The notes beneath the pieces were generated by a model. The model was not told the DNA's origin and did no database searches. It saw only the letters and a program-made list of their open reading frames with translations. From Liolophura sinensis (Eukaryota > Mollusca > Polyplacophora > Chitonida > Chitonidae): 64,000 nt of DNA. The position numbers and the translations under genes are program-made. Within the stretch, counting starts at the first letter, position 1; every line of letters starts with the position of its first letter. The stretch is taken from assembly GCF_032854445.1 (NCBI RefSeq), contig NC_088295.1, positions 6,140,501-6,204,500 of the forward strand, in the 5' to 3' direction. Below are positions 4,451 through 62,760 of this stretch, piece after piece.

Positions 4451-4454
4451 AGGA

Positions 4455-6454: not shown

Positions 6455-6470
6455 CCCCCCCCCCCCCCCC
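6455..6470. repeat. Homopolymer C tract
   Basis: A run of C followed by CCCGCCCCTCC. Similar C or G tracts occur near 28911, 48330 and 49387. Lengths of such tracts are unreliable in assemblies. Confidence 0.7.
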
Positions 6471-8397: not shown

Positions 8398-8639
8398 AGA
8401 CATATTAGTTCACTAAATAAAAACAAAAAGAACTAGAATGGATCTGCGAACAGCAGATCCTAGGCCGGGATCCCGGATCGGATCGATGACGTTTTCCACA
8501 CCCAATAATACACGGCCCTTGTAACAGCAAGTTTATGTAAATGTGCCGAATGTGGTAAATCTGCCTTAAGACATTCTTTGAAAACGTGCATGTCCTGTGT
8601 TTGTTGACACAGATCAAAAAATTTTAGCACACATAGACT

Positions 8640-9200: not shown

Positions 9201-11800
9201 TTGAAATTGACAACATTTTCATCGCCTGACAAATTGGCTAAGATGGGATCGAACTCTGACATGACTGACAGGCGTCAGCGGTAAGAGAAAAGAAAGAAAG
9301 AAGAAAAAGCAAAGTTTCTACTTTCATGTCTCAATCCACGACCTGCCATGTACAGACTCACTGCTCTACTGATATCTAGGCCGTTGTTAGAAAGTCAACA
9401 CCTGGACCACGGCACATGGCGATGTCTGTCAATCACCATGGCCTGGTTAGCGTATAGTAAAGAAGACAAGGTCTGCGCAAAACAAAGCTAACTTTTACAG
9501 GTCCACGTCGTGTGCTGTTGTAGTTAGAATTCTACGCCATCTAATAGAGTACTGTATAGCTGAATGGCAACGTACAACCGTTTCGGGAGATAACGGACAG
9601 TGTAGCCAAAAGGATCAGGTCAAACACTATAAACCCAGTCCAGTTCCCATCTAACTGCATCTTAAAGCAATAGGATTTCCATCTTTTTCTAAACAAAAAA
9701 CGGTGTTGTCATTTAAACGCTTCTAGCGAGAAAACTGTTGATCGGAGCTCAAGTCCCTTGACAAATGCACGAAAGAGCATGTTTTGGGCTACAATTTGGT
9801 GCAGGTTGCACATTTCTAGCTCCCATAGTTCTCAAGTTACAGGTCATTGAAATTACGTAACTTTTTTGAGATTTTTTGCTTATATCTCAAAAAGTTACAC
9901 AGATATGCAAAAAAAATAAAGCAGATTCGGAATCAGCAGCTCAAGATACATCAGAATACGTTGAGAACAATTGAACTTTCAGAACTTTTTGTGACGTCAC
10001 AACTTCGGCCAATGGCGAGCTTCCAGAGTTTTGACCGGAAGTGAACCATTTTTGCAAACTTTTAAGAACTCGTGACCTTCTAGCTGCATGTCAAATTTGA
10101 AAAGAATCGGTTCAGTGGTCCTTGAGAAGAAGATTTTTAAAGGTTTGGGAAGAACGGGATCCCTAAATACAGGATATAGCAATAGTTCTAGTTATGACAG
10201 AAAAATTGTATACCCGTTACAAACTGTTGTCTTCATCCACACAGAAAAAACAAAGTCGATGCTGTTGCCATAACAATCTCGCGACCCAGGCCAACCATGT
10301 GACAGTCACAAGTGAAATACACCACCCTGGTCATGGATGCAATGAACTCAACCCAATGAACTTTGAAAAGGAAGATAATTCACAGTCATAAAATAGACTA
10401 TCCTTATTACATCTGGATAGCCTCCCTTTAATGATTCCAATTACCTTGAAAAATAACCTATGCAAATCAATAGGGTTCTTTCTCATGTAAAAATGTAAGT
10501 TTAGTAAACTTGGGGTAAACTGTTCAGGATGCAGCGGAGTTGACCTCAAAGCAATCACGTCGACACGAGGCTCTTTGGTCGCGCTGCTATCCACTAGATC
10601 ACGGAAACTCGTTAGGGCAGGCTCTACGAGCGGTTTGTAAATACATCTGATTGATGTATTGACTTGACAATACATGGTATGTTTGTCATAACATCTGGTA
10701 AATAAATTACATAAAGCAAATCGATGCAATAAAACATGATATGTGCCGACAGAGATCGAGAAACCTGACTTTCTCAGGCAATGTCACGACAGGTAAGTCC
10801 TTAGCGGTGTCAAGATTAATACGTCTGTATTTGGCTTAAGTGAACGCACAAAACAACATTATGAAAATCAGAACTATGATTAAATTTATCTGGAGTGATG
10901 ATTATGATAGAATAAATCGCAGGTATTAGATTACAAAAACGGGAGGTTTGCGTATGACAAACTTAAATACATTCGTACAATAATCAAAATGTATATGGTT
11001 TAGAAAAATTAGTCTTGGGGAGGAGAAATGGCATATTCTGTTAGCTAACGATGCATACAATAAACAATTTAATGTTTTTCCTCTGTATATGAACACTGCT
11101 TTCGGCGAATACTAACAACACATTTGTATACAATCAAGTAATGTTGCTGACAAAACGATATACGTGTATATACTCCTCAAAATTTAATTACAGGAAACAG
11201 ATACACAGTCCCCGACGGAGGGGATAGGGTTTCCTGGGGAAAAACTGCAGGCTTGTAGACCTTCTGCCATACCGAAAATTTAGCTTAGCTAGAGCATAGC
11301 CTAGACTTGTCTCTTACACCAACCAATCAAAACCGATTCTATATCCCTTTATTTGAAACCAGTTTAATCAAAATCTTGTAATTTTCGAATGCATATCGAA
11401 AGAAGAACTTCGAAGGTGACTGACGAACATAAGAAGAGTAACGAAGAAAGAGACAATTGTCTGCTCTGTGTGAATTCATATTCGGTTTTTTCTTGTCTAA
11501 AGTTGGCATTCACGACTGTATGTCGTGTTTCTTGTCTGTTTCTTCTTGTTATATATGTCTTTTATAGGGCTCCTGACCAGCGTTGAACTAAACCAAGAGA
11601 CGTGAGGAATAATCTTCTTTGCACCGTGCGATTTCAGGATTACTTGTTTCTGCATGTCTGAACTATCAAAAAGTAATTTCACCTCCGACATATTGGTTGG
11701 CATGACTACTTCCGGCTGCTGAGTAGACCTTAATAACTTTGAGTACAGCCATTGTCAAACAGTGTTCGATGCCGTCATGATCATTTTTATTTTTAATACT
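9200..11800. other. Gene-free stretch
   Basis: No receptor exon, RNA gene or tandem array was recognised. Short open frames on both strands show no motif. The stretch around 9780-10150 has the texture of a dispersed noncoding element, but I cannot name it. Confidence 0.3.
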
Positions 11801-11814
11801 TCACAGCCTTGCTG

Positions 11815-12030
11815 TGTTCATGCCCATAAGCTCAAAATGACCATTAGCTCACCATGTCCATAAGCTCACCATGTCCATATGGTCACCATGCCCATAAGCG
11901 CACCATGTCCATATGGTCACCATGCCCATAAGCGCACCATGTCTATAAGTTCACCATGTACATAAACTCACAATGCCCATAAGCTCACCATGTCTATAAA
12001 CTCCCCATGTCCATAGCTCTCCATGTACAT
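11815..12030 (+). repeat. Minisatellite, 18-19 bp unit (CCATGTCCATAAGCTCA)
   Basis: About 11 imperfect copies of a unit near CATGTCCATAAGCTCACC, in which CATGCC/CATGTC and AAGCTCA/ATGGTCA variants alternate. Noncoding. Confidence 0.85.
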
Positions 12031-13416
12031 AACAAATAAAATCTGTGGCCAACAATGCTCACTCAGTCATTCTACCTGAGTTGTTTAATGTTATGAGATT
12101 CAGTAATGCAGGAATAACACAATTATTTAGTCACAGAAAGGAATAATTCGAACCCACCATTACCAAAGGATAAGCAGTGTATTGCTGTTGACATTAACGT
12201 AAACGAATAACCCACTTTTTAAGCTGAGTCAGCGGGTTTCCCAGTCTCGGGCGATGAAGTCATCACCCAGGAACGATATCTCCTTGGGGAAAGTTATTAC
12301 ACAGCGACAGCTATAACGTATCAAAGCGATGTTACCATTTAGCTACTAGAAATAGGACCTCGTCTCGTAAAACATGCAGACCAGAGGTTATGCCGTTATT
12401 ATCTGTACAAAAAGATGATTAAATTTATGGCATTAACCAATGAAAGTCGTGGAAATGTCGAGAGATCTTTGGTGCACATGAGTCAGTGTTACTCACATAG
12501 ATAGTACCTATTTCACAGTTCACCTTAGGGTACTTTTGTATGTCAACACCAACAAAAGCTCACTGAAAACAGATATCACTTGTATCTTTCGGGGTTTGCA
12601 AATCAGTTCACAAAACTGAAACAGGTTCATTAATTTTCTCCAAAGCGTTGTTTAAATGCCTTCCAGAACCTTTAAATGTTCTGCAAACAAAGCATAGAAT
12701 TTTCACTGTTGTCCTTTTCCAAACAAGTTAGCGACAAATTGTGCTGAAGAGTGACGTCAAGAGAAGGGCGGAGAGGGTAATTAGATGGGGTCATGTTCTT
12801 CTGTTTGCCGCAGAACACATACCAGTTTTGTAAAATTAAATTCACGCACACAAACCTTTATACTCGAATGAAAAAAATAGTCAATCTATATGCAAACGTT
12901 ACAAATTAAGGTATCCTGAGTCAACAGAGGATTGTTCTTATGCCTTACATGCATGTATCTCTTCTTTTGTGGATATTTCAGCTCTCTGAATTAATACGTA
13001 GTTAACGTATATGTTTGTAAAGTAGCGAAAACAAGCTGATAAATGGTACGCAGACACTATCATTAACGGACCAAGCTCATTTCATACATTCATCAATGCA
13101 TTCTAATCACTCTTTTTTGCTGTCATTGTTAATGGTATATGTTGCAAACAAACGATTTGGCTAATTAAATAACGACTAAAGTATAAAATCTAGATAGAAG
13201 AAACTCTTTTACTTGAAGTCAAGACGTATACACTGTACAATCATTTTGACGCCTTTCAGTCTTAAATTTAACTGTTCCATGCAGAGAAGTAAACACCAGG
13301 CAAATTTTATAAATGGTGGATAGGTCGCCAATGAAAACGTTTAAATATACATATTTAAACACTCTTACGAAACGTATAAGAGTAACCAAACAGCCATGTA
13401 AATGCGAAGTAAACTC
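12031..13416. other. Gene-free stretch, 3' flank of gene B
   Basis: This is sequence downstream of the stop of minus-strand gene B and would include its 3' UTR. No coding exons or repeat arrays were seen. Confidence 0.4.
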
Positions 13417-16400
13417 TTAGGAAATCTCGGCATCACATTCAACACGTGTTCTGTGGCCAAGTGTTTGAAAGGCGATTTTCAGCACCAGACAGCCGCTGGC
13501 AAGGGCGATGATACCGGCGTAAGACAGAAACAATCCGCCCAGGCTGTCCAGCCCCAGGCTGTTGACCTTGTCGTCATGAGGGTGCAGACAATGACTAGGC
13601 TGCCCCCACCACTTCTTTCTCCACTTCTCAACTAAACCAGCTTCTTGCATCTGATGTATACTGTTGAAAAAAAAAAGAGATCGAACTCGTGAATTATCCA
13701 CCACAACGGGCCCATCCAGCCTGTCCACATTCTTCACATTTCCATGCTGAGCGAAGAACATCTGCAAAACTGTTGGCTAAGCTTTTCTGTATGTTTTTTG
13801 TCTTTGGTTCAGACTTTGCCCATGCTGACGGATTGGTGTACAGCTTTTTCATTTCAGAGCGCTAGTCGACAACAATTTATGCAGGTATAGGCGCGGAGTT
13901 ACACCGTCCAGGTTTATGGATGTTTGTATGGAAGTTTTGTTCAATTCACAAAGCCATTATGAATAAATACATGAACATATTAATTTGAAATACAGTTGTG
14001 AAATACAGGTGATCGACATACAGGTAAATATAGGATTTTAGAGACAGAGTGTTACCTGGATAAACCCACGATCATATTTAGCAACTGAACCACATTGCAT
14101 TTCTGGCGAGATGTTACAATTTTAGATTGAAACATTGGTAGATTTAATACAGAGCTGAGTAACACTGACTACCGATTTAGTTTACACTAAAACGGGTAAC
14201 AGTGCCCATGTGGGATCCCAGCAAGGGGGAATTCATCACGAATGTTGGTAGGCTACTTACAAAGGGTTGACTATGTGGGCGTAGGCTGCTCCCTCGGAAA
14301 GGACAAACCCGTATCCAACAAAATCAAAACTTTCCGCCGCCACTGAGAAAGTAAAGCAGCTTTCACTGGATAAGGAATCAAGAACAGGTTTGTCTCCCAC
14401 ATACGCGTATTTCCCCGTTCTTATCAGGTTGAGCACTTCTTCCTCTAGAGAAACCCTTGGTGCTTCCTTCATACGGCTCCATGCTTTCTGGTACAGCTCG
14501 GTTCTAGATTCCTACATTCAATACACGACTAGGTTACATCGCTGTCTCAAATAAGAGAATATTTTATATAGAATTTATAAACATTCATTTATTATATATA
14601 GAACTGGGTTAAGGTATGAATACATGTAGGAAACAATAGTCTGTGAAAAGCTTTCAGTGCATTCGAAAGGTCAGATATATTAGGCAAATTGTCCGGAGTC
14701 CAAGTATAATATACAGCGCTGAATAGTGCGTTCTTTATGGTTGACGAGCTTACACTTAAAACCGACCCGTCGAACAGTCACTTTACCTTAAAGAATGTTT
14801 CAAAGCTACTCCCTGCCTCAATGAATGGCAGCATAGCATCTTGAGCAACCAGCTCCCCCATATTATTTATAGGCGGTGGGGGCAGAGAAATTGTAAGGAA
14901 GGCGGCTAGGTTGGCTGTGTAGGTGGCCACCAACAGGATGGTGAACAGCCACCAGAATCCAATCAGACAGCGGCCGGAAACGGCTCGTGGACTGTGCTGA
15001 ATGCCTGCAAATTCACACGTACATGTAAATCGGAAAGGGCAGAGCTGTGCGGATTATACTACGTGAAAACACAATGACCAGTGTGTTGCATCGAGGTAAA
15101 AAGTATATAAATTGAACAGGATGGGAACTAGGATATAGCGAAACATTAAGATATTTGATAAATAACAGTCTGACCATCATTTCTTGTGATGAGCTATTTG
15201 TTTCTTATTTGAGCGGGGCCAGGAAAAATAGTTCCTGGTCACATTCCACATTGACGAGTTTCACTCTACAGAAGACCTATGTTCAAATCAAGAGGGCATT
15301 GTAGCCCTTCGTAGTGTCCTGCTCCTTACCTTGCTCTGTTACGGAACTGTAAACCATCCACATGTTGTCCTCCAGACTAGACTCGTACTTTTGCTGAAAA
15401 GGACGCGCTTCAGGTGTCATCTGGAATGGCGTATATCGGTTAACAAGTAAAGAGACGAAACCAACGAGAAAAACAGAGCAGAGAACACTGATCCACACCT
15501 GAGCAGAGTAAGGCTTCAACGTCTGGAACAGACTCTTCTTGGCCTGATACCCAGGTGAGAGGGTCATGATACCGGTACTACCTTCTGAGAACGGAACGGT
15601 GAAGTCGATGACCTGTTCTCTAAGCGAAGTGATGGTGAATGGACCGATAGCCATTTCCGCTTCCTGGAGAAAACAGCAACACTGAATTTTGTTCATCTTC
15701 ACAGATGGGATAGTACAGGAAGCCTAACTTTGGTACGTTAGTCACTCTTGTTAAGATTTGTAGCAACTTAATTCTTGACAAAACTGACTTTAAAGCAAGA
15801 TTTGTAATAATCATCTTCAAGTATATAGCGGACTTACCCGAGCTGCTGGATGATGTGATTTTTTTTGCTGGTTAATAAAGTGTTACAAGCGACTGGTGCG
15901 TGCTGGTGAGGCTCTCTGGTGCTATCACCTGAGTTCGCTCCGTTATACTTACTTGGTCTTCTTCGTTCAGTTCAAGTCGTGATCAAACATTTGTGTGCTT
16001 GTGCTATTGTGAAGAACTGTGGATTTGGTGAAACGCTCTGGTGTTAGAAAATTGCGGTGAGTACACTAAGTGAATCTAAATTATAACCCGTAGTAAGTGT
16101 CACAAAAATGTCTGCATTCATAAAAAAAGATATAACTGTAAATCATCATTTGTCAGACTCATGCCACTAACAGCATTTGCTCCGATTGTCTTGAAATTTA
16201 CCAAACGGGCCATATACTTTTTGTCGCAAACATAGACCAAACGTTTTAATTTTTCCAATTTCGGTCAGTTTCCAGAAGAAACAGGAAATTGTGTAGATCC
16301 GAAATATAGTGACGGCGTAATTGCAGTATAGCAGAGCGTTAGACGCAGATAGCAATTTATGCATTTGGCATTATTACACACAAGGGTGTGCAATATGTCG

Positions 16401-31354: not shown

Positions 31355-34300
31355 TGACCAATTTATGCCACCACCTTGTCTGCGCATGGTGTATGTCAGT
31401 AGTCTCACATATGTCTTGTCTGTCCATGGTGTATGTCAGTAGTCTCCCACATGCCTTCTCTGTCTATGGTGTATGTCAGCAGTCTCCCATATGCCTTATC
31501 TGTGCACGGTATATGACAAGCAGTCTCCCATATGCCTTGTCTGTGCATGGTGTATGTTAGTAGCCTGCCAAATGCTTTATCTGTGCATGGTGTATGTCAG
31601 TAGTCTCCCATATGCCTTCTCTGTGCATGGCGTATGTCAGTAGTCTGCTTATTCCTTATCTGTGCACGGTGTATGTCAGCAGTCTCCCCTATACCTTGTC
31701 TGTGCATGGTGTATGTTGGTAGCCTGCCAAATGCCTTGTCGGTAAAAAGAGTATGTCAGCAGTCTCCCATACGCCTTGTCTGTGCATGGTGTATGTTGGT
31801 AGTCTGCCATATGCCTTGTCTGTGCATGGTGTATGTTGGTAGTCTCCCATATGCCTTGATTGTGCATGCTGTATGTCAGTAGTCTGCCATATGCCTTGTC
31901 TGTGCATGGTGTATGTCAGTAGTCTCCCACATGCCTTGTCTGTGCATGGTGTATTTTAGTAGTCTGTTATATGCCTTATCTGTGCATGGTGTATGTCAGT
32001 GGTCTGCATTAGGTCTTGTCTGTGCATGGTGTATGTTAGTAGTCTCTTATATGCCTTGTCTCTGCATGGTGTAAGTCAGTAGTCTGCCATAGGCCTTCTC
32101 TGTGCATGGTGTATGTCAGTAGTCTGCATTATGTCCTGTCTGTGCATGGTGTATGTTAGTAGTCTCTTATATGCCTTGTCTGTGCAAGGTGTATGTCCGT
32201 AGTCTCCCATATGCCTTCTCTGTGCATGGTGTATGTCAGTAGTCTCCCATATGCCTTCTCTGTGGATGGTGGGTGTTAGCAGTCTCCCATATGCCTTGTC
32301 TGTGCATGGTGTATGTTAGTAGTCTGTTATATGCCTTATCTGTGCATGGTGTACTTTAGTAGTCTGTTATATGCCTTATCTGTGCATGGTGTATGTCAGT
32401 GGTCTGCATTAGGTCTTGTCTGTGCATGGTGTATGTTAGTAGTCTCTTATATGCTTTGTCTGTGCATGGTGTAAGTCAGTAGTCTGCCATATGCCTTCTC
32501 TGTGCATGGTGTATGTCAGTAGTCTTTCACATGTCTTGTTTGTGCATGGTGGCTGTTAGCAGTCTGCCATATGCCCTCTCTGTGCATGGTGTAAGTCAGT
32601 AGTCTCCCACATGCTTTCTCTGTACATGTGTATGTCAAGCAGTCTGCCATATGCATTGTCTGTGCGTGGTGTATGTCAGCAGTCTCCCATATGCCTTGTC
32701 TGTGCATGGTGTATGTCAGTAGTCTCCCATATGCCTTGTGTGTGCGTGGTGTATATCAGCAGTCTCCCATATGCCTCCTCTGTGTGTGGTGTATGTTAGT
32801 AGTCTCGCATATGCTTTGTCTGTGCATGGTGTAAGTCAGTAGTCTCCCATATGCCTTGTCTGTGCATACTGGATGTTAGCAGTTTCTCACATGCCTTCTC
32901 TGTGCATGGTGTATGTCAGTAGTCTCCCATATGCCTTGTCTGTGCAAGGTGTATGTCAGTAGTCTGCCATATGCCTTGTCTGTGCATGGTGTATGTTAGT
33001 AGTCTTTGACATGTCTTGTTTGTGCATGGTGGCTGTTAGTACTCTGCTATATGCCTTGCCTGTGCATGGTGTATGTCAGTAGTCTCCCACATGCCTTGTC
33101 TGTGCATGGTGTATTTTAGTAGTCTGTTATATGCCTTATCTGTGCATGGTGTATGTCAGTGGTCTGCATTAGGTCTTGTCTGTGCATGGTGTATGTTAGT
33201 AGTCTCTTATATGCCTTGTCTCTGCATGGTGTAAGTCAGTAGTCTGCCATATGCCTTGTCTGTGCATGGTGTATGTCAGTAGTCTGCATTATGTCCTGTC
33301 TGTGCATGGTGTATGTTAGTAGTCTCTTATATGCCTTGTCTGTGCAAGGTGTATGTCCGTAGTCTCCCATATGCCTTCTCTGTGCATGGTGTATGTCAGT
33401 AGTCTCCCATATGCCTTCTCTGTGGATGGTGGGTGTTAGCAGTCTCCCATATGCCTTGTCTGTGCATGGTGTATGTTAGTAGTCTGTTATATGCCTTATC
33501 TGTGCATGGTGTATTTTAGAAGTCTGTTATATGCCTTATCTGTGCATGGTGTATGTCAGTGGTCTGCATTAGGTCTTGTCTGTGCATGGTGTATGTTAGT
33601 AGTCTCTTATATGCTTTGTCTGTGCATGGTGTAAGTCAGTAGTCTGCCATATGCCTTCTCTGTGCATGGTGTATGTCAGTAGTCTTTCACATGTCTTGTT
33701 TGTGCATGGTGGCTGTTAGCAGTCTGCCATATGCCCTCTCTGTGCATGGTGTAAGTCAGTAGTCTCCCACATGCTTTCTCTGTACATGTGTATGTCAAGC
33801 AGTCTGCCATATGCATTGTCTGTGCGTGGTGTATGTCAGCAGTCTCCCATATGCCTTGTCTGTGCATGGTGTATGTCAGTAGTCTCCCATATGCCTTGTG
33901 TGTGCGTGGTGTATATCAGCAGTCTCCCATATGCCTCCTCTGTGTGTAGTGTATGTTAGTAGTCTCGCATATGCTTTGTCTGTGCATGGTGTAAGTCAGT
34001 AGTCTCCCATATGCCTTGTCTGTGCAAGGTGTATGTCAGTAGTCTGCCATATGCCTTGTCTGTGCATGGTGTATGTTAGTAGTCTTTGACATGTCTTGTT
34101 TGTGCATGGTGGCTGTTAGTACTCTGCTATATGCCTTGCCTGTGCGTGGTGTATGTCAGTAGTCTCCCATATGCCTTGTCTGTGTGTGGTGTATGTCAGT
34201 AGTCTCCCATATGCCTTGTCTGTGTGTGGTGTATGTCAGTAGTCTCCCATATGCCTTGTCTGTGCATGGTGTATGTTAGTAGTCTCCCATATGCCTTGTC

Positions 34301-36912
34301 TGTGCATGGTGTATGTTAGTAGTCTCCCATATGCCTTGTGTGTGCATGGTGGATGTCAATAGTCTCACACATGCCTTCTCTGTGTATGGTGTATGCCCGA
34401 TGTCTCCCATATGCCTTCTCTGTGCATGGTGTATGCCAGTAGTCTCCCATATGCCTTGTGTGTGCATGGTGTATGCCAGTAGTCTCCCATATGCCTTCTC
34501 TGTGTATGGTGTATGCCAGTAGTCTCCCATATGCCTTGTGTGTGCATGGTGTATGCCAGTAGTCTCCCATATGCCTTCTCTGTGTATGGTGTATGCCAGT
34601 AGTCTCCCATATGCCTTGTGTGTGCATGGTGGATGTCAATAGTCTCACACATGCCTTCTCTGTGCATGGTGTAAGTCAGTAGTCTCCCATATGTCTTCTC
34701 TGTGCATGGTGTATGCCAGTAGTCTCCCATATGCCTTGTGTGTGCATGGTGTATGCCAGTAGTCTCCCATATGCCTTGTGTGTGCATGGTGTATGCCAGT
34801 AGTCTCCCATATGCCTTGTCTGTGCATGGTGTATGTCAGTAGTCTCCCATATGCCTTGTGTGTGCGTGGTGTATATCAGCAGTCTCCCATATGCCTCCTC
34901 TGTGTGTGGTGTATGTTAGTAGTCTCGCATATGCTTTGTCTGTGCATGGTGTAAGTCAGTAGTCTCCCATATGCCTTGTCTGTGCATACTGGATGTTAGC
35001 AGTTTCTCACATGCCTTCTCTGTGCATGGTGTATGTCAGTAGTCTGCCATATGCCTTCTCTGTGCATGGTGTATGTCAGTAGTCTGCATTATGTCCTGTC
35101 TGTGCATGGTATATGTTAGTAGTCTCTTATATGCCTTCTCTGTGCAAGGTGTATGTCCGTAGTCTCCCATATGCCTTCTCTGTGCATGGTGTATGTCAGT
35201 AGTCTCCCATATGCCTTCTCTGTGGATGGTGGGTGTTAGCAGTCTGCCATATGCCTTGTCTGTGCATGGTGTATGTTAGTAGTCTTTGACATGTTTTGTT
35301 TGTGCATGGTGTATGTTAGTAGTCTCTTATATGCCTTGTCTGTGCATGGTGTAAGTCAGTAGTCTGCCATATGAATTCTCTGTGCATGGCATATGTCACT
35401 AGTCTCCCATATGCCTTGTCTGTGCATGGTGTATGTTAGTAGTCTCGCATATGCTTTGTCTGTGCATGGTGTAAGTCAGTAGTCTCCCAAATGACTTACC
35501 TGTGCAAGGTGTATGTCAGTAGTCTGCCATATGCCTTGTCTGTGCATGGTGTATGTTAGTAGTCTTTGACATGTCTTGTTTGTGCATGGTGGCTGTTAGT
35601 ACTCTGCTATATGCCTTGCCTGTGCGTGGTGTATGTCAGTAGTCTCCCATATGCCTTGTCTGTGTGTGGTGTATGTCAGTAGTCTCCCATATGCCTTGTC
35701 TGTGTGTGGTGTATGTTAGTAGTCTCGCATATGCTTTGTCTGTGCATGGTGTATGTTAGTAGTCTCGCATATGTCTTCTCTGTGCATGGTGTATGCCATT
35801 AGTCTCCCATATGCCTTGTCTGTGTGTGGTGTATGCCAGTAGTCTCCCATATGCCTTGTCTGTGTGTGGTGTATGCCAGTAGTCTCCCATATGCCTTGTC
35901 TGTGTGTGGTGTATGCCAGTAGTCTCCCATATGCCTTGTCTGTGTGTGGTGTATGCCAGTAGTCTCCCATATGCCTTGTCTGTGTGTGGTGTATGCTAGT
36001 AGTCTCCCATATGCCTTGTGTGTGCATGGTGGATGTCAATAGTCTCCCACATGCCTTCTCTGTGTATGGTGTATGCCAGTAGTCTTTCACATGCCTTGTC
36101 TGTGCATACTGGATGTTAGCAGTTTCTCACATGCCTTCTCTGTGCAAGGTGTATGTCAGTAGTCTCCCATATGCCTTGTCTGTGCGTGGTGTATATCAGC
36201 AGTCTCCCATATGCCTTCTCTGTGCGTGGTGTATGTTAGTAGTCTCGCATATGCTTTGTCTGTGCATGGTGTAAGTCAGAAGTCTCCCATATGCCTTGTC
36301 TGTGCATACTGGATGTTAGCAGTTTCTCACATGCCTTCTCTGTGCATGGTGTATGTCAGTAGTCTCCCATATGCCTTGTCTGTGCAACGTGTATGTCAGT
36401 AGTCTGCCATATGCCTTGTCTGTGCATGGTGTATGTTAGTAGTCTTTGACATGTCTTGTTTGTGCATGGTGGCTGTTAGTACTCTGCTATATGCCATGCC
36501 TGTGCGTGGTGTATGTCAGTAGTCTCCCATATGCCTTGTCTGTGTGTGGTCTATGTCAGTAGTCTGCCATTTGCCTTGTCTGTGCATGGTGTATGTTAGT
36601 AGTCTCGCATATGCTTTGTCTGTGCATGGTGTAAGTCAGCAGTCTCCCATATGTCTTCTCTGTGCATGGTGTATGCCAGTAGTCTCCCATATGCCTTGTG
36701 TGTGCATGGTGGATGTCAATAGTCTCACACATGCCCTCTCTGTGTATGGTGTATGCCAGTAGTCTTTCACATGCCTTGTCTGTGCATACTGGATGTTAGC
36801 AGTTTCTCACATGCCTTCTCTGTGCAAGGTGTATGTCAGTAGTCTGCCATATGCCTTGTCTGTGCGTGGTGTATGTCAGTAGTCTCCCATATGCCTTCTC
36901 TGTGCACGGTGT
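31355..36912 (+). repeat. 40-bp satellite array, about 139 copies, with higher-order duplication
   Basis: A 5.56-kb array of a 40-bp unit whose halves are AGTCTCCCATATGCCTTGTC and TGTGCATGGTGTATGTCAGT, between the 5' end of gene B and the 3' end of gene C. Period is strictly 40 bp. A block at 31921-33080 is repeated from 33081 with a 1160-bp offset (29 units), except that 80 bp (two units, 32861-32940) are missing from the second copy. Later parts re-use the same variant series, for example 34841-35000. CATATG occurs in most units. Short open frames across it on both strands are artefacts. Confidence 0.95.
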
Positions 36913-37695
36913 ATTCGCTGGTTTTACATCTTTACATTTAAAAACAAATCCTCTGACAGCTGAGTTAGATTTATAAGTGAATTCATAACGTGCCGATTCG
37001 TGGTTTGACCTATTACAGTGTACGTGCAGGATGATCATTGATTTTTTTTGTTTTTTGCTAGGTTAACTCGGTTGTTCCTTTGTCCTTATTCTTATTTGTT
37101 GGAATAATTGCTTCCATAAACATGAAGCTATATACAGAAACTCCCTCGTCCACTGGTGAACTGGATTTCTTCACTGGATTCAGGCGTCAAAACACACATT
37201 TACCCACCACTCAGCAACCTTAAAAGACATCCCCGAGTCACTGTGCGTTAGGGCTATACATGCGCATCAGGTGACTAACAAAACCCCACCAACGACTGGA
37301 CTAGATAACACAGTGGTTATGATGTATTGCTGATCATAGGAAAGTAAAATTCGTTAATACCACGATGTATGCAAAAATATGAGACAATTTCGATACAACC
37401 GAAGGATTCTACAAGATAAAGATAATGTAGGTTAATCGAATGAAGTTCCGATTTTGCAGTTTTCTGACATCAGTTTGTTTTACTAGCATAGATTTTAGGA
37501 GATAATCGTTCAAACAAAATGTGGGGAGAAAACAAGAGAGCACATGGTTCAGAATCGCTTTGTTCAAGACATGAAGAACTTCCAGAATTCAAGTAGGGGC
37601 TGACCGATTACTCTCTGAGACTCCAGTTCACTTTTTGTTCTCGAAATCTTACATCACACAGACGTGGATCTGCTGTCTTCTCACTGGTGCTCCTT
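36913..37695. other. 3' flank of gene C
   Basis: Unique sequence between the 40-bp array and the stop codon of gene C. It presumably contains the 3' UTR of C. No coding exon or repeat is recognised. Confidence 0.4.
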
Positions 37696-40600
37696 TCAGT
37701 GATTACCACTTGGCAAGTAATGCTTGTGTTCACAATGCTTCCTGAAAATGATGTGCAGAGGACAGCAAAGCAGTGCAAGTAGAACAGTGCCTAAGTACAA
37801 AAGGAAGAGGCCTCCTAAACTGTCCAGATCCAGATGACTCTGCAGGGTTTGGGGAGATTCCCTGCACGAACTGTTGGACGACCACCAATGATGGCGCCAT
37901 TTCTCCATCAATCCAGCCTCCTGCATCCTCACAATTCTGAAGTTCAAAACACAAAATCTGGTAACAGCGTGTTAAATCATAGCGTCTTATTTCAACAAGA
38001 TCTATGAAGTATTCTAGAACGATCGCTTTTTGAAAAAGTATGAGTTGACGGTCACAACACAATGGTTTTGTTCAAATATCTGGAGGCGGAGTTGGATGTA
38101 CTAGTACATCTTAACATGGAAGCAATCAAGTGGTCAGTTTGCTACTTATATGCATAGAAAGGGCATTTCTAATGAACTGGAATTACTTGAAGAATAAGAT
38201 ACAGATTAACAAAATATTCACAGCACAGGAAGACAAAGTTTGGCAGGAACTTACAAGCGGTTTATGATTTTTCCGTAAGCGGCGTCCTGGGGTAGAACCA
38301 TTCCGTAGCCAACCACATCAAAACTTTCTTCAGCCACGGAGTAAGTCCTGCATTCCTGACCAGCAAGGTAGTCCAACACGGGGCGGTCCGATATGTAAGC
38401 GTATTGACCCGCCTTCACAAGGTCCAGTATGCTGGCTTCGTGGGAAATCTTTGGTGAATTTTGAAGTCTGCTCCAGGTTCTTTTGTAAAGGTCGGAATGA
38501 GAATTCTGAAACAGAGTACAACTTCCTTTGTTAAAAAAATAATGTCCTCCCCAGTCGATATCATACGTGGACAAACTATTTATCTCCAGTATAACAACTG
38601 TTAATCGACAATGTGTGGCGAAAGGAATAGGCTACAGCTTGCGGAGGCATTTCAGGTGAAGATATATTACGTCAACTGTTTAGATACCCTGAACATCGTC
38701 TCAAAGCTCGTTCCCGCCTGGACGATTGGTTGTATTTTGTCCTGAGCCAGAAGCTCCCCCAACGTGTTTATAGGCGGTGGCGGCAGAGATATGGTGAGGA
38801 AGGCGGCCAGGTTGGCTGTGTAGGTGGCCACCAACAGGATGGTGAACAGCCACCAAAATCCAATCAAACAGCGGCCGGAAACGGCTTCTGGACTATGCTG
38901 AATACCTTTGAGAAAAAAGAATAAATCAGGGATTTACTGCAATGATTAAATAAATCGTAAGGCATAGGGATATCCTGGCCCGAATTTGTGAAAATCATTC
39001 TGGCTTGTTATTTGAAATGTGGAGAATGGTAGCTTCTACGAAATTTACGACATGGTGTCGTTCCCCAACCGATGATTAATTTGTATACAACGTGAGGAAA
39101 TGAAGTGGGCAGAGTATTTGTTAACAGAATTAACGGAAAAGCATTTAAATAAGAATCACAAATCTTCGGTGCTCACTCTGTACAAACAGATAGAAATTTG
39201 ATTTGATGTCAATAGCTCGTGTTCTGACCTTGTTCTGTCACTGAACTGTATACCATCCACAGGTTGTCTCTCAAGCTTGTTTCGTACTTGGCCTGTAAAG
39301 GACGATCTTCGGTTTTACGCCCGAATGGCGTGAATCGGTTGACCAATAAGGACATGCAGCCGACAATAACAATAGCTGCCACGATGGATAACCACACTTG
39401 GACGGAGTAAGGCTTTAGCGTCTGGAACAAACTTTTGTTAGCTTCATAGCCCGGTGAGAGGGTCATGATACCAGTACTACCTTCTGAGAACGGAACGGTG
39501 AAGTCGATGACCTGTTCTCTCAGCAAAGTGATGGTGAACGGACCGATGGCCATTTCCGCTTCCTGTTTATAGAAAATCTGCCATAACAATGTTTTCAAAG
39601 CTGTAAGCTTCATCACGGATGCACTAGTCTACGCAATACTTCTACATCATGTATTGATATACTTCTAAAGATAAGAAAAATAACTCTGATTCCTGGGATT
39701 ACTCTTACCATAACAGATTTCCTTCTATATACACCACTCCAGCAAACTAAGTTTCCTTATCCCTCTGTAAAACATAAAAGACTTCCTTCTACATAGACCA
39801 CTCCAGCAAACTAAGTTTCCTTACCCCTCTGTAAACCACAAAAGATTTCCTTCTACATAGACCACTCCAGCAAACTAAGTTTCCTTACCCCTCTGTAAAA
39901 CATAAAAGACTTCCTTCTACATAGACCACTCCAGCAAACTAAGTTTCCTTACCCCTCTGTAAACCATAAAAGGCTTCCTTCTACATGTAACACTCCAGCA
40001 AACTAAGTTTCCTTACCCCTCTGTAAACCATAAAAGGCTTCCTTCTACATGTAACACTCCAGCAAACTAAGTTTCCTTACCCCTCTGTAAACCATAAAAG
40101 GCTTCCTTCTACATGTAACACTCCAGCAAACTAAGTTTCCTTACCCCTCTGTAAACCATAAAAGGCTTCCTTCTACATGTAACACTCCAGCAAACTAAGT
40201 TTCCTTACCCCTCTGTAAACCATAAAAGGCTTCCTTCTACATGTAACACTCCAGCAAACTAAGTTTCCTTACCCCTCTGTAAACCATAAAAGGCTTCCTT
40301 CTACATGTAACACTCCAGCAAACTAAGTTTCCTTACCCCTCTGTAAACCATAAAAGGCTTCCTTCTACATGTAACACTCCAGCAAACTAAGTTTCCTTAC
40401 CCCTCTGTAAACCATAAAAGGCTTCCTTCTACATGTAACACTCCAGCAAACTAAGTTTCCTTACCCCTCTGTAAACCATAAAAGGCTTCCTTCTACATGT
40501 AACACTCCAGCAAACTAAGTTTCCTTACCCCTCTGTAAACCATAAAAGGCTTCCTTCTACATGTAACACTCCAGCAAACTAAGTTTCCTTACCCCTCTGT

Positions 40601-43600
40601 AAACCATAAAAGGCTTCCTTCTACATGTAACACTCCAGCAAACTAAGTTTCCTTACCCCTCTGTAAACCATAAAAGGCTTCCTTCTACATGTAACACTCC
40701 AGCAAACTAAGTTCCCTTACCCCTCTGTAAACCATAAAAGGCTTCCTTCTACATGTAACACTCCAGCAAACTAAGTTCCCTTACCCCTCTGTAAACCACA
40801 AAAGGCTTCCTTCTACATGTAACACTCCAGCAAACTAAGTTTCCTTACCCCTCTGTAAACCATTCCAACCATGCCGTTCCATGTCCCATTTTCGTCAGGG
40901 GCACCGTAAAAGTTGTCAGGCGGTTCTATTATAGTGTAGCTGTAATGAAAATCATGACATCATTTTGGGACATTAACAAAAGACCAGTGGCAAATTCGAC
41001 AATTGACTTAAATGTTTATAAATGGCCCTCTTTGTCTCTGACGGTTGTAGTGTTGACTCGTCATCTGGGCATTAGAGTTTTTGCTTTTAGCTGTGGGTTT
41101 TAGCCAAGATTTTTTTGTTTCGGTGACTGGACAGTGGTTGTCTCAGGGATTTCGGGATTCCTCCATCAATTAACCTGACGGTCATTGTACAGGCAAAATA
41201 ATTCTAAAGAACGGCGTTAAACACAAACAATCATCATAGTTTTAAAAACTAAGGATATATCATCAGTCAAAAAATGCAGGCAAGATATGGGAGAGTGCGG
41301 ATTTGTTTAATTTTATGACGCTGTTTAAAATGATGTACATTATGTTGACTCCCCTAATTCATCTTCGCACCCTATGTCCTGTGAAAATGCGTAAATTAAG
41401 GCTAGATAAATGTGAAAAATGTGATGCCGACACATCTTAGACTCGCCTCGTGGTTCAAAGTGTACTTACTTAAAATGCAGATGCCTTGCAAGCTCATCTA
41501 AAATGTCTATGGAAAAGCCGGTGTATCTGAGGCTTCCATTAATCCCCTCACGGATCAGAAAAGGAAGAGCCTGCACAAACAGAACATCAGTCACGGCACA
41601 ATAAAGCAAGAAGGCGCAAAATACTGATACTGATGCAGTATTTGCATGCGTAATCCACCGTCCCTGTTGGTGACGTGTATAATATTTACACGTGTAATCC
41701 ACCGTCCCTGTTGGTGACGTGTATAATATTTACACGTGTAATCCACTGTCCCTGTTGCTGACGTGTGTGATATTTACACGTGTAATCCACTGTCCCTGTT
41801 GCTGACGTGTGTGATATTTATATGTGTAATCCACTGCCCCTATTGGTGACGTGTGTGATATTTGTACGTGTTATCCACTGTCCTTCTTGGTGATGTGTGT
41901 GATATTTACATATGCAATCCACTGTCTCTTTTGGTGACGTGTTTGACATTTACAGGTGTAATCCACTGTCTCTTTTGGTGACGTGTGTGATATTTACAGG
42001 TGTAATCCACTGCCCCTTTTGATGGCGTGTGCGATATTTATACGTGTAATCCACTGTCCCTGTTGCTGACGTATGTGATATATACAAATGTAATCCACTG
42101 TCCCTGTTGCTAACGTGTGTGATATTTACACGTGTAATCCACTGTCCCTGTTGATGACGTGTGTGATATTTACACGTGTGATCCATTGTCCCTGTTGCTG
42201 ACGTGTGTGATATTTACACGTGTAATCCACTGTCCCTGTTGATGACGTGTGTGATATTTACATGTGTAATCCACTGTCTCTGTTGCTGACGTATGTGATA
42301 TTTACATGTGTAATCCACTGTCTCTTTTGGTGACGTGTGTGATATTTACAGTTGTAATCCACTGCCCCTTTTGATGGCGTGTGTGATATTTATACGTGTA
42401 ATCCACTGTCCCTGTTGCTGACGTATGTGATATATACAAATGTAATCCACTGTCCCTGTTGGTGACGTGTCATATTTACACGTGTAATCCACTGCCCTTT
42501 TTGCTGACGTGTGTGATATTTATATGTGTAATCTTCTGTCTCTTTTGATGACGTGTTTGATATTTGTACGTGTAATCCACTGTCCCTGTTGATGACATGT
42601 TTGATATTTACACGTGAAATCCACTGTCCAGTTGGGGAAACGTGATATTTACACGTGTGATCCATTGTCCCTGTTGCTGACGTGTGTGATGTTTACACGT
42701 GTAATCCACTGCCCCATTTGGTGACGTGTGTGATATTTACACGTGTAATCCACAAGCTGTGATGGTGACGTGTGTGATATTTACACGTGTAATCCTATCC
42801 CAATGTTTGTTAGAAGCAGCACGATGAAAAACGCTCTATTCATGGCTGTTTTTTCACAGATTTACAAGCTTTTCGGAAGTACTTGTAACTTGTATGAGCA
42901 ACAGCACACTGATATATCATAACAGTACAAGTACATTTCTCACAGTTCCACTATCTTCACTGTGAGTTTTACTGTGAGTGAATGAATCTTTACTTATTCC
43001 CCTGAACAAACCCTCTCTCCATGACATGATTTCCACAGCACTATTGGCCTTATTCAATACTTACAGGTGTCACGCCGTGCATATTTCCCTGTAATTACAC
43101 CTGTTCGTAATTAATCTTTTAAACACCTGTACTGTTTTCTGCATCAATGTTCTGTTGTTCTTAAATATGCGTATATATAAATCATTACTTTGTATATAGC
43201 CCTACGTATCATGGACGACTTTGATGGAAGCAGTTACATCCGAACTTTTGTAAAACAACCAGGTACAGAGCCTTTTTTATCGCGTTGTTTCTGAAAAACA
43301 TTGTGAAACCAATCCATTTCATTCACTCTCTTTGTTGGTGGCCTGTATGATATATACATCTTTTTGCTGACGCCACTACGCCTTGATGAGTAACGTAACC
43401 CTGACATTCGGATGCCCAGTTTCCAGCCACCATAATGCTGGCCTCTGTAGTATACGTCAAATATTCTTGAGTACGGCGTAAAACACCAAATAAATACGTA
43501 AATAAATAGCTCACCTCTGTCGCGGCAATCAGAATAGGTTCCTCACCAAAGTCGTGGAAATGGTTCAGGAAAAGGTTTCTCTTGTGTGCCAGCAAGCCGT

Positions 43601-56800: not shown

Positions 56801-59800
56801 TCTGTGATGGGCGTTGTGAAGTCTATGACCTGTTCCCGTAGAGAGGTAATCGTGACGGGGCCTGTAGCCATCTCCACTTCCTGACAAAAGTTGGAAAGAC
56901 GTTGTAAGTTATAGATTTGTCACGGGTGTGGCCACATCGGTTATTACTACGGTACCTCGTATTGGAAGTTAAAGGCCTCTGGCATTTTCTTACTTTTGAC
57001 GTTATATTTAACACGCAAAAACGCGAAAGGGCAGATGACGAAACTGCAAAGGTAGAAAACACGAAAGTGCAAGAAGAAATAAGAAAATAAAAGCACAATA
57101 CCCAATAATACAGTTTGTTCAGCTTTGCTATCGCCTTTTCATGCTTTTTGCCTTTTTAACAAACGCATTTTCATGGTTTTCAACTTTTTAACCATCGCCT
57201 TTTCATGCTTTTTGTCTTGGGTGAAAACCCAAGGAAGAAAGAGTAGAAAGAGAAAACACAAAAGTGCGAAGATTTATCAGTTTCACATTTTCGGGTTTTG
57301 CTCACAGTTTCAGGCTTCCGCCTCTCACTCTCGTGCTAGCGATCTTCACAGTTTCGGGCTTTCGGCTCGCACTCTCGTGTTAACGATGTTCACAGTTTCG
57401 TATATTATAAAGATCAAAAGTAAGAATAATGCGAATGGCTACAACCAGTTTCCATACGTCACACGACTTCCTCCTGCTACCGTCGTGGTATAGCCGAAAT
57501 ATTATTTGAAGCGACGCTAAATCCCAATCAAGCAAACAAACAAACCCCTTAATCCGCACAAAATGTGGTTGTCTCCATAGCTGTGCACACCAATGGTTCT
57601 GTATTTTCTTATGTACATCATATAACAGAAATTTTCTTTACCATTTGAGTTCTCCTTACCCCTGTGCTAACGGCATGTAACGTAAATTCTCCTTATCCCT
57701 CTGTACAGTGTGTATACCTGTGCTAACGACATGTAATGTGAATTCTCCTGACCCCTATCTACATTGTGTATACCTGTGCTAACGGTATGTAGCGTGAATT
57801 CTCCTCATCCCTCTGTACGCCATACAACTGGAATTCTCCGTACCGTGAATTCTCCTCGTCCCTCTGCAAGCCATTTAACATAAATTCTCCTTACCGGTGT
57901 GTTAACGGCATGTAACGTGAATTCTCCTTACCCCTCTGTACACCATGCCCACCATGCCATTCCATGTTCCATCCATGTTCAGGGCACCGAAATATCCGTC
58001 TGGGGGTTCTACTATTGTGTAACTACAACCACCGAATGAGAACTGGCCATTTACGGATTAGTATACGATTAATCGATCTTAGTATCCACATAGGAAAAAG
58101 ATCAGAGAACCGTGTCCGTTTGAGAATTATCAGAAGCTGGTTTATTTCTCTAGACAAATCTTTCCAGATTTAAACGGAAAAGTTAATGTTGGCTCAACAT
58201 TCCTTGGCATTTACTTTCAGAGCCATACTTCCAGGCTCTGTCCGGTTTGACAGGCGCATGGCAAAGACCGGGCATAAATCTATCCACCCTAGTATAAGTA
58301 TACAATTTAGTCAACATTTGTAAGATGGCATTACACATTAGATATCGCCGTACTCACCTAAAACCCATTTTAGAGGCCAGCTCGTTCATGACATCAACAC
58401 AGAAGCCAGTGAATCTTGTGGCTCCCCCTATCTGAGTCTTTATGATGAATGGAGGAGACTATTAAACAGACAGTATCATTGTAACGTCAAACCTGCTCTT
58501 ATTAAATCATCAGGCCTCTAACCTGGATATAGATCTATATTATTTAAACTATGACATTTACATTAAAATTGCGTCCCAACAAGTCAAACGATATACAGCT
58601 GAAACATAATAAATGTACGTAATAGTAAAGTCATACTGTATTATTTGAGATATTGTTTGGTTAAATTTAATAAATTTATGTCGAACTTCTGAGCATTTCC
58701 ACATAATAATACACAGTGGAGGTACTCAGAAGTTCGTTCTTAGTTAAATCAGGAAAGTAATACACAAACTGAAGTACAACCTCAATTGCTGCTACATAGA
58801 CTGTCTCATTTCCAAAGTCGTGCCATACATTTTGGAACAGAAAGTCTTGTTGAATATCGAGACCCGAGTCCTTGTTCCATTCTCCGATTTTTGTCCCAGT
58901 TTTTCGGCGAAATGAACCGCCACGTCTCCTCCATACATTCTCAAAACTGTGAATCTCGTACATCGGTGAGAACGGGAATGGTAGCACCCTGTCGTTGACG
59001 GCCATCTGCAATAATCAGCCAGCAAGGAATAATTACAGTATCCACTACTGAAAGACATTTTACTTCTCAGCACAAGGCCATACAACAGGTGAGCTTTCTT
59101 TCCGATCTTGCTAACAAGATCCATATGGTACATGAATGTTCATTGTACTTTCCCTTTTCAACACAGCTAACCAGAGGTATACATTATGCTTACATCAGGC
59201 ATAAAGAATGTTCACACAACTCAGAAGCATTCAAATCCCTAGTCCTAAATCAAGGACTCAAAGCAACAAATAAGGGGATATTTTTACATACCACTACAAC
59301 CTGCATCCTCATATCGGCTAGCATTTTGTTGCTCCCACCACTTACTAATACATACCACCATAACCTGCATCCGCATATCAGCTCGCTTACTGTTGCTCCC
59401 ATCACTTACTAATACATACCATCATAACCTGCCTCCTCATATCAGCTCGTCAATTGTTGCTCCCACCACTTACTAATACATACCACCATAACCTGCATCC
59501 GCATATCAGCTCGTCTATTGTTGCTTCCATCACTTACTAATACATACCATTTTAACCTGCCCCCTCATATCAGCTCGACTATTGTTGCTTCCATCACTTA
59601 CTAATACATACCACCACAGCCTGCCTCCTATCAGCTCGCATATTATTGCTTCCATCACTTACTAATACCACCACAGCCTGCCTCCTTATATCAGCTCGCT
59701 TACTGTTGCTCCCATCACTTACTAATACATACCATCATAACCTGCCTCCTCATATCAGCTCGTCAATTGTTGCTCCCATCACTTACTAATACATACCACC

Positions 59801-62760
59801 ATAACCTGCCCCCTCATATCAGCTCGCCTATTGTTGCTCCCATCACTTACTGATACATACCACCACAACCTGCCTCCTGATATTAGCTCGCCTATTGTTG
59901 CTCTCATGACTTACTAATACATACCACCATAACCTGCCCCCTCATATCAGCTCGCCTATTGTTGCTCCCATCACTTACTAATACATACCATTATAACCTA
60001 TCTCCTCATATCAGCTCGTCAATTGTTGCTCCCACCACTTACTAATATATACCATCATAACCTGCCTCCTCATATCAGCTCGCCTATTGTTGCTCCCACC
60101 ACTTATTAATACATACCACCATAACCTGCCTCCTCATATCAGCTCGCCTATTGTTGCTCCCATGACTTACTAATGCATGCTGTCACTTGTGCATGCTTCT
60201 TGCACCGCGAGTATTTTCATGAGTTAATGTCAGAACCGCTTACTGTCATTGTTACTATAACCAGACCTATTCACCAAAGAACATGGATTCCTTGTCTCTT
60301 TCCACTTATTTTACACTGTATTATACCTAGTCCTTTGTTTATGACCGTGCGTACTTAAGTCTGTAAATAACAATCAGGTTCAGATTTTCTGACGATAGCT
60401 GCAAACTAAGCCGAAATATAGAATACCTCCAGAAGTCGACATAATTGGCTTTCCAGCTACTGACGAGCGGCATAAGGTATACTACAATTATCCAGAAGCC
60501 AGAACAGTCTGCTTCCCATTTCTTATGCCGACAACAGGCATAAAGTATACTTACATCTCTCCAAAAGTCAGCACAGGTCGCTTTCCATTTCTCCGCACAC
60601 CCTGAACAGTTATCAGCCCCTGTTCGGTTGTCTGTGGTGTTAGTTTTGTACACAGCTTCGTGCAACACTAACAAAGATCGAGCAAGCAAGTCCTCCTGTA
60701 ACTAAATTTTCAGACTCCCATAACGCAACCGAACGGATTATAACCGAGAGTTTTCTTATTAAATTGCAAAAGGATGTCATTATAATGCTCTGTAATTTTT
60801 ATCTTCGGCAGAATTTCTTTGATCGAGTCTTTGCACCAGAAAGGTGAAGAACACATAGAATCTTGGACGTACTTACAGTTACACTTAAGTAGGTATCTTC
60901 TCCTTTGTACATCGAGCTACCATCGCATATGTAAGTGTCCTTCCATGTGCGCTTCACAAAAACTATACCCCCTTTGACCTTTTGAGCGAAGAAGTGTGTA
61001 ATTTCAGCTGCGGTCATCTCCTCAGACACAACAAGCCACAACGTGTCCGAGGTAAGAGAGGTTCCTTCCAGCTACAGAATAAGAGAACACCTATCAAGTT
61101 AACATAGACGAGAAAGCACTTTCCTTTACAAAGCGCATTCTGAAACAAAATTCATTTTTCGACAAGGGGAGTTAAGAATCTAATTGTGGTTTGTGATAAA
61201 GAAAATATGATACAAGCGGTGTCAATGCTGGCTGAAATTATTCATTTACCACTGCATGTATCACCTCTCCCTGTGAAACATACCTGTTCGTAAAGTCTGT
61301 AAAATTGATCAGGAGTCCCGATAAACAGTACCCGGTTTGGCACGGCTGACCAGTGTTTCCTCGGTCCAGAGAAGACCTTGGGATCAATCAATGTCACTTG
61401 TACCAAGCGCTCAGACAACGAGAAGATCAAATCTGTAAACTGATATTTATCTACAACAGAAATGGTTTCAAGTAAGTAACATAAGCTACCAGTTCTACGA
61501 CTTTAAAAAGATATGGATGTACATTAAAGTGCTTTTCTTACCTATATGGGTATGATGAAAAATCCCCACGGCTTTCCAGTGGAAGTAATGCAATAGATCT
61601 TGAACAAGTTGGTTCTGAGTTGAAGAAATTTTATTGAATCCTTTTCTGTACACCGGGATAGCGGATTGAGCGGCAATAGACATATGAGGTAAGCACAGGT
61701 CGTCCGCTGTATAGAGGGGAAAGTCTTTCGTTTTCTTGGGTAAGATGGACACGACCCCAAGGGCGCCGTCCTCCAGCATCTCGCAAACTGTAAAATCCAA
61801 GATGTGAACTTTCATAAAATATATGTTTGAATTTTTGTAAAACAACCACCTATCATTCTGACTCATCACTTATAAGTGAAATTTATTTATTTTATTTATT
61901 TATTTTTTGGTGGATGTTTTCCACTGTACTCAAGAATATTTCCCTTATACGCCATTTCCATTTCCCTTATTACCCATGGAAACCCATGACCATCCGCATG
62001 TTGTTGCAGACCATCGCACGTATTATCGGAGAGAAAGCCAGCAAGGGAAATGCGACATGGAATACGGCGTTAGGCACAAATCAAATAACACGCAGATATT
62101 TGATATCTGATAGGTTTTCGTATCTGTTTTATGTTATTATTATGACCGCTATACATGACTCAAGGTAGCTTTGACACACTTCTGATATTCACTATGCTAC
62201 TGATATTTCTTGTGCATTTCTGAAGTTTACATCTCTTGATTAGGGTAGTCTTCAATTAATTCTTGTGCGTGTTTTCTGAAAACATTGCCGATGGTGTATT
62301 TTACAATCCCAAGTTATGCTGAGCGACCAATATGGTGTGTTTAACCCTAAGTAAACGAACCCGAACATTGCATGCGTGGACGGGAACGATAATTCAAGAG
62401 TAAGAACAAATGCGCTTTGTCTGTACACGCAATTATCTGTTTTACTGCAATCTTTACAGAAGCACACAATCAATAGTCTATGTGAAGATATCTCTTATCC
62501 CTTAAACACGACTCGAAGAAGCATGAATCAGATAATACTCGGTCATACTTGGACAGACACTTTTTCGTGCTATACATTTGTCTCGCATGACCTTGACTTA
62601 CCTTGGATGTGCAATGACCCAAGGTCATCAGTGTCCTTTTGATCCCACACAATCCGTATCTGAACGTCTACCTGGTTTGTATCTGATTGAAGCATTTCAT
62701 TGACCACATGCTCCACTGTGTGCCGACGAAACTGGCTGACGTTGCCTGTGTATAGCACAC
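53814..62760 (-). CDS. iGluR paralogue D, 12 exons visible, signal-peptide exon missing
   Basis: Exons, 5' to 3' on the minus strand: 62602-62760, 61542-61787, 61284-61450, 60877-61071, 60555-60701, 58781-59005, 58358-58458, 57932-58022, 56550-56880, 55904-56121, 54895-55145, 53814-54036. They join in frame for 783 residues plus stop. They correspond to exons 2-13 of B and C; the first begins in phase 1, so a short signal-peptide exon is expected upstream. I found no convincing candidate before 64000. D is the most diverged member, with lengths differing by whole codons in exons 2-4, 7 and 10. The donor after exon 7 is a weak GAG|GTTGTA. The expected role is the same as B and C, but see the TM3 motif. 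Confidence 0.85.
55376..55580 (-). mobile_element. SINE 3' fragment, minus strand, with target-site duplication (gene D intron 11)
   Basis: The element (55390-55566) is the reverse complement of the family 3' half, 5'-truncated within the GCTCATGCTGGCTTCC region. It is flanked by an exact 14-bp direct repeat, TGAATGGAATAAGA, at 55376-55389 and 55567-55580. This is the mark of LINE-mediated integration. Confidence 0.9.
57000..57427. other. Simple, partly self-complementary repeat-like region (gene D intron 9)
   Basis: TTTTCATGCTTTTTG occurs twice, and CACAGTTTCGGGCTTTCGGC-like words recur. A perfect hairpin CTTGGGTGAAAACCCAAG lies near 57216. It looks like a decayed noncoding element; I cannot name it. 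Confidence 0.3.
57428..57545 (+). mobile_element. SINE-like 3' end of a second family (gene D intron 9)
   Basis: It ends AGCGACGCTAAATCCCAATC plus AAGCAAACAAACAAAC, preceded by CCGTCGTGGTATAGCCGAAA. The layout matches the other SINEs here, but with a CAAA tail and a different core. Confidence 0.55.
57655..57931 (-). repeat. Degenerate satellite derived from exon-9 5' splice site (gene D intron 9)
   Basis: On the minus strand, after the exon 9 end (GTGTACAGAGGG) and donor GTAAGG, degenerate copies of TACAGAGGG(G/A)TAAGGAGAATT plus CACGTTACATGCCGTTA follow with irregular 30-70 bp spacing. At least three copies retain TACAGAGGG or close variants, and two keep GGTAAGG. The arrangement parallels the regular array in gene C. 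Confidence 0.75.
59283..60175 (+). repeat. 64-bp minisatellite, about 14 copies (gene D intron 6-7)
   Basis: Units with ACCATAACCTGCCTCCTCAT, ATCAGCTCGCCTATTGTTGC and CTTACTAATACATACC repeat with an exact 64-bp period (CTTACT at 59341, 59405, 59469). It lies between exons 6 and 7. The sequence is unrelated to the other 64-bp arrays. Confidence 0.9.
60424..60600 (-). repeat. Triplicated exon-6 end and donor region (gene D)
   Basis: On the minus strand the exon 6 end codes EKWKATCADFWRD. The following intron continues in the same open frame with KKWEADCSGFW and SSWKANYVDFW, at spacings of 69 and 63 bp. The real donor is GAT|GTAAGT; the equivalent points in the two copies read ATTGTAGTA and AGGTATTC. 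The frame stays open to a stop at 60339. Confidence 0.75.
61882..62043 (-). mobile_element. Diverged SINE fragment (gene D intron 2)
   Basis: The reverse complement shows CGTATAAGGGAAATATTCTT, GAGTACAGTGGAAAACATCC and an AATAAATAAAATAAATAAA tail at the low-coordinate end. Upstream there is a matching GCGGATGGTCATGGGTTTCC. The 5' tRNA part is lost. Confidence 0.75.

Follow-up and report, generated by a model that had tools for sequence, protein, structure and literature searches.

A minisatellite carrying a 5' splice site in a putative ionotropic glutamate receptor gene of the chiton Liolophura sinensis is probably a tolerated 'mirage' born at the exon-intron junction

Most of intron 9 of gene C, a putative ionotropic glutamate receptor (iGluR) gene of Liolophura sinensis, was found to be a tandem array whose units reproduce the end of exon 9 together with the 5' splice site that follows it. 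We consider it likely that this array is a tolerated minisatellite of the 'mirage' type, born at the junction, of which the exon is the protein-constrained edge copy. Mirages are described from amphioxus as minisatellite-like duplications of intron-exon boundaries (PMC3087553). The window referred to below is the whole stretch of DNA that was analysed (64,000 nucleotides, positions 6,140,501 to 6,204,500 of contig NC_088295.1, assembly GCF_032854445.1), and feature coordinates are positions in this window. The species of the assembly was published as Liolophura japonica and has been corrected to L. sinensis (PMC12441733).

Gene C lies on the minus strand. Its array consisted of 18 head-to-tail units of exactly 64 bp each, running from 40863 down to 39712 (39712-40863), as established by TRF and by unit alignment; TRF reported 39707-40863, a period of 64, 18.1 copies, and 98% matches. 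Unit 1 was the genuine end of exon 9 with its donor, and the remaining 17 units were intronic, which confirmed the 17 tandem copies claimed in the first-pass annotation. The coordinates given there, 39725-40939, cover the array but omit its last 13 bases and take in all of exon 9. This exon (40849-40939, minus strand, 91 nt, iGluR-like ligand-binding region) was placed by tblastn among paralogs, its acceptor and donor being read from the sequence, and its last 15 bases open unit 1. It ends with ATG GTT TAC AGA GGG, the last base being 40849, and is followed from 40848 by the 5' splice site GTAAGG (40843-40848, minus strand). Intron 9 (39563-40848, minus strand) was delimited by the edges of exons 9 and 10, and its position and phase 0 were the same across 22 placed paralog junctions. 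The matched part of exon 10 (39227-39562, minus strand) covers the pore region (Pfam PF00060, E 2e-7). PF00060 was above the cut-off for the gene C exons near the array; exons 8, 9, and 10, each searched on its own, matched PF10613 just or well under the cut-off (for the 30-aa piece of exon 9 alone, E 6e-5, under the curated cut-off). Gene C is an ionotropic-glutamate-receptor-like gene. The exon numbers follow the first-pass annotation, and the gene model was read from the genomic sequence.

The unit spans the exon-intron boundary and is contiguous with the exon, and the splice signal is retained in the copies. The 15 coding bases ATGGTTTACAGAGGG (MVYRG) stood at the start of every unit, as had been noted before, but units 2, 16, 17, and 18 each differed from the exon by one base within them. 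Reading of each unit bore out that GGG/GTAAGG is intact in 16 of the 17 intronic units; the exception was the exon-distal unit, with GGG/ATAAGG. Units 4-14 matched unit 1 at all 64 bases, units 2 and 3 differed from it by 2 bases and 1 base, respectively, and the four exon-distal units differed by 4, 6, 5, and 9 bases. Such high identity among units indicates recency and is silent on selection. When the junction 35-mer was compared with the rest of the intron, its score was 70, and the best of 100 dinucleotide shuffles reached 28. Reading through from exon 9, the twelfth codon was TAG, as had been predicted, and this stop ended at +36. The first donor is probably the one used, as judged from reading frame and homology.

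The same junction was then followed in the paralogs of gene C. A search with exon 10 gave 36 genome matches (E of 1e-6 or lower), and twelve of these lay between 6.07 and 6.31 Mb on contig C1. The paralog sample comprised 24 of the 36, namely 20 outside the window and four inside it (W_A, W_B, W_C, and W_D), and the other 12 were left out. Exon 9 with its donor was placed in 22 of the 24; W_A, in which no exon 9 was found, and L018, with a weak exon 9 match, dropped out. Each junction was compared with its following intron and with 100 shuffles. Ladders of the gene's own junction were detected at six of the 22 junctions (L001, L002, L003, L004, W_C, and W_D), each beating all 100 shuffles, and the other 16 showed no ladder. 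The nearest negatives, scored as such, were L015, whose score was reached by 3 of 100 shuffles, and L016, with 7 of 100.

TRF arrays lay over the junction in L001 (35 bp), L002 (82 bp), L003 (37 bp), L004 (35 bp), and W_C (64 bp). In paralog D, whose matched part of exon 9 was placed at 57932-58021 (minus strand) by tblastn among paralogs, TRF gave 51- and 56-bp arrays beginning 36 bases into the intron, and diverged units ran back to the junction. The shuffle test and the alignment of copies revealed here an older, decayed ladder (57640-57946, minus strand) with six further copies, several with an altered GT. A unit of approximately 35 bp (15 exon and 20 intron bases) was shared by L001, L003, L004, and W_D, and was also contained in the 82-bp unit of L002, which is this unit plus one of 47 bp. 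In L004, the entire 317-base intron was made up of about nine diverged 35-bp units; at its end the acceptor stretch ATGGCGTTTTCCAG, followed by GAAGCG, directly adjoined the last repeat unit and may derive from one. The ladder of L003 was broken by longer inserts at offsets of approximately 72-275 and 396-777 from the donor, one of which ended in 25 A. These inserts resemble a dispersed element also found in the window, which may be akin to molluscan SINEs.

Repeats of other kinds were also present. The window held many minisatellites (42 TRF rows), including a 5.5-kb array between genes B and C (31374-36914; 40-bp unit, 138 copies, 83% matches). Within paralog D, a further intron held a 64-bp, 14-copy array (59285-60178) with TTAGTAAGT in the sense of the gene, and no contact of this array with an exon was seen. 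A 129-bp query from gene C gave 15 genome matches, all inside the gene C array, and the matches of a 115-bp query were limited to the ladders of L003, W_D, L004, and L001; the search skips very common words, so that these results are no proof of absence elsewhere. Since both queries, within the reach of this search, matched ladder genes alone, a dispersed repeat or transposable element was rejected as the source of the ladders.

When the 24 exon 10 proteins were placed in a tree, all six ladder genes fell within a clade of eight (support 97/92), in which W_D was the first to branch. Six of the seven testable members of this clade carried junction repeats. The exception was W_B, which showed no ladder of its junction in the shuffle test. 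No recognisable exon 8 or 9 was found upstream of paralog A (exons 10-12 at 1027-2895) in the searched part of the window (1027-14000), and paralog A may be a truncated copy. With W_A and W_B scored as lacking the ladder, three changes of the trait were needed on the tree, and the starred branches forced only one of them. A single origin of the ladders may thus be compatible with the tree, as may independent origins.

Traces of shared descent and of renewal were both apparent. L003 and W_D have in common an odd second unit beginning GCCGTTAACA, suggesting descent in register. The junction-type copies of L002 bore the CACCGA variant of their own exon (CCCCGA in one copy), and the gene C copies bore the GTT of theirs. 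Exon ends were closer to their own ladders than to relabelled ones, with 12 of 720 relabelings equally good; this likeness appears moderate, with gene C and L002 contributing most of it. It suggests that the exon side may have been the source from which these ladders were amplified anew. When the 64-bp unit of gene C was compared by eye with the 35-bp unit, the likeness was clear in the first ~22 bases alone and weak beyond them, so that the gene C ladder could possibly have originated independently at this position.

As a control, 80 exons of two unrelated families, kinases and kinesins, were chosen blind to their flanks. The kinase set was 40 of 135 matches (short ones, hand-picked; 10 contained an internal stop and 30 did not), and the kinesin set was 40 of 118 (the first 40 in list order without an inside stop and of at most 300 bases), some of the kinesin exons coming from one gene with common flanks. 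Thirty larger kinase loci (L021-L050), in which most matches lay in long open frames, were scanned with TRF and kept out of the rate. Arrays over the exon's own junction were observed in six of the 80 exons (7.5%, roughly 3.5-15%, Wilson interval by hand). Three covered a 5' splice site, namely L079 (67 bp), L084 (65 bp), and L111 (125 bp, copies with altered GT). The other three covered a 3' splice site: L073 (37 bp), L074 (80 bp), and L115 (64 bp), with six decoy acceptors in L074 and four in L115 that match the true acceptor at each of 14 bases. L090, L120, and L149, with an array near the exon edge but off it, and L112, with a faint likeness, were scored as non-spanning. Under a model of random seeding outside the interiors of exons, 2.4 of 21 arrays would be expected to cover a junction; six were observed, with a rough P (6 or more) of 0.02, match edges being taken as exon edges so that arrays at farther edges may be missed. 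Junction-spanning arrays are therefore not depleted relative to random seeding and may be enriched.

The fate of the decoy donors was examined in the four older ladders (L001, L003, L004, and W_D). The donor GT was intact in 20 of 30 copies, and other adjacent dinucleotides were intact in 11 to 24 of the same 30; copies were selected by their match, without gaps, to a 35-base reference, so that shifted copies count as losses and copies with fewer than 19 of 35 matches are missed. The decoy donors in these ladders showed neither more upkeep nor more purging than the other positions of the unit. Nine 5' arrays together held 46 GT sites that agreed with the true donor at no fewer than 7 of 9 bases, some of them without being the unit's own donor and none of them in L111. 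Use of these 46 sites was predicted to give a stop in 45 cases and a frameshift in one. Because ordinary intron sequence would give about the same, stop-producing decoys are no sign of design.

These results bear first on the possibility of a regulated decoy ladder. In such a ladder, U1 snRNP would be captured by the donors, some of the transcripts would end up in forms that contain a stop, are degraded or are retained, and receptor output would depend on the number of copies. In favour of it, 16 decoys in gene C have the same 9 bases as the true donor and would each bring in a stop, and the number of 38-bp repeats in human TERT intron 6 is described as steering splicing (PMC3948165). The chiton array resembles that case as a minisatellite inside an intron. 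However, the TERT repeats lie more than 1 kb from the junctions and reportedly act by RNA pairing (PMC3948165), whereas the chiton unit holds the splice site itself and predicted structure did not consistently favour the first donor. In gene C, the predicted unpaired chance of the donor 9-mer was 0.006 or 0.002 at the first donor (two settings), 0.004 and 0.0006 at the second, and about 0.007-0.035 at donors 3-17. In L002, the first donor was the most unpaired at one setting (0.030 versus 0.003-0.018) and not at the other. The hiding of decoys by RNA structure was therefore rejected. The predicted fold of gene C units 1-4 had a z of -2.16. Conservation of decoys beyond their surroundings, which would mark regulated sites, was not seen in the four older ladders, where donors decay like other positions; moreover, W_B lacks a ladder, comparable arrays occur at control exons, and stops are expected in any intron. 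A regulated decoy ladder is thus improbable.

U1 is known generally to block premature polyadenylation and to hold transcripts in the nucleus. The many U1 sites might accordingly act uncut, guarding the intron against premature polyadenylation or retaining the transcript, and the dense intact donors of gene C would suit such a role. This reading leaves unexplained why the control yielded equal numbers of 3' and 5' ladders (three and three of 80 exons), and it is opposed by the same decay of donors in older ladders; we regard it as more doubtful still. That spare donors buffer the site, rescuing splicing upon loss of the first, is highly implausible, since use of the spare donors, identical as they are, would introduce a stop no later than the splice and so would rescue no protein. 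An assembly artefact is equally implausible, for although tandem arrays are prone to assembly errors, the assembly is described as built from HiFi reads (14x) whose mean length of 8,347 bp far exceeds the 1.15-kb array (PMC11068029), the unit variants are ordered with the four exon-distal units most changed, and the arrays of paralogs and control exons consist of diverged copies.

The first-pass annotation had offered a splicing sink or nonsense-mediated switch, a mutational buffer, and a neutral by-product of slippage. The last fits best, being supported by the decaying donors, by unit length and copy number that vary among paralogs, by W_B, and by the control exons; a dedicated switch is unsupported and the buffer is countered. 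For a tolerated junction minisatellite, the following history may be proposed. The 35-bp ladder would have arisen once in the ancestor of the iGluR clade, would have been lost in W_B, and in gene C and L002 would have been amplified again starting from the exon, with its coding end as the copy that protein selection holds intact.

In exon definition, the spliceosome pairs splice sites across the exon. Decoy donors would be tolerated if the acceptor of exon 9 were paired in this way with the nearest good donor, and rare misuse would be removed by nonsense-mediated decay. The copy running into homologous coding sequence was the first transcribed in 5' ladders and the last in 3' ladders. If the coding-side copy is the one used, transcription order alone fails and pairing across the exon fits; nearest-site pairing could account for both kinds of ladder.

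Among known systems, the closest are the amphioxus mirages of the globins BflGb6 and BflGb9, Adh3, TnC, and PGBD5, in which tandem repeats are likewise described over the boundary, at 5' or 3' sites, with the splice signal in many copies (PMC3087553, PMC3902484). For Adh3 and the globins, PMC3087553 reports regular splicing by RT-PCR and unstable length; PGBD5 and troponin C are further cases described in PMC3902484. By its structure, as read from genome sequence, the chiton array would qualify as a mirage, the splicing and instability data being those of amphioxus. Unlike the amphioxus cases, it occurs in a mollusc and has 17 intronic copies, 16 with an intact donor; its relatives sit at the same junction in other genes of one clade and differ in unit length, and arrays of this kind were present at six of 80 sampled exons. 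Among the matches listed in the open-licence literature, no mirage outside amphioxus was found, and a word search of PMC12005716 did not find tandem repeat, minisatellite, or satellite; none of this is proof of absence. In the Rogers model, as discussed in PMC3087553, introns are gained via tandem duplication of exon sequence bearing AG/GT. The chiton duplication similarly carries an exon end and a donor, but its intron is not new: all 16 ladder-free placed paralog junctions have an intron at the same place and phase, and making of the intron from the repeat was ruled out.

The gene C array is a striking example of a class already known; it is of interest because the class is apparently common in the genome and because splice-site choice could be tested directly with RNA data that already exist. 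The usual way to study how the spliceosome chooses the true site when its neighbours are identical is with constructed minigenes. If approximately 7% of exons harbour repeats of the splice site, 5' or 3', at their own edge, as the sample of 80 suggests, existing RNA-seq from the species could be used to address this choice in many natural cases. Mirages would then be no peculiarity of lancelets, and a coding exon edge could evolve jointly with an intronic satellite. It is conceivable, rather than probable, that junctions are a major birthplace of minisatellites in the chiton, with several percent of exons bearing own-site ladders, the protein-constrained exon edge serving as an enduring master from which the array is seeded again, coding ends and satellites evolving in concert, and the spliceosome picking the exon-side site in thousands of introns.
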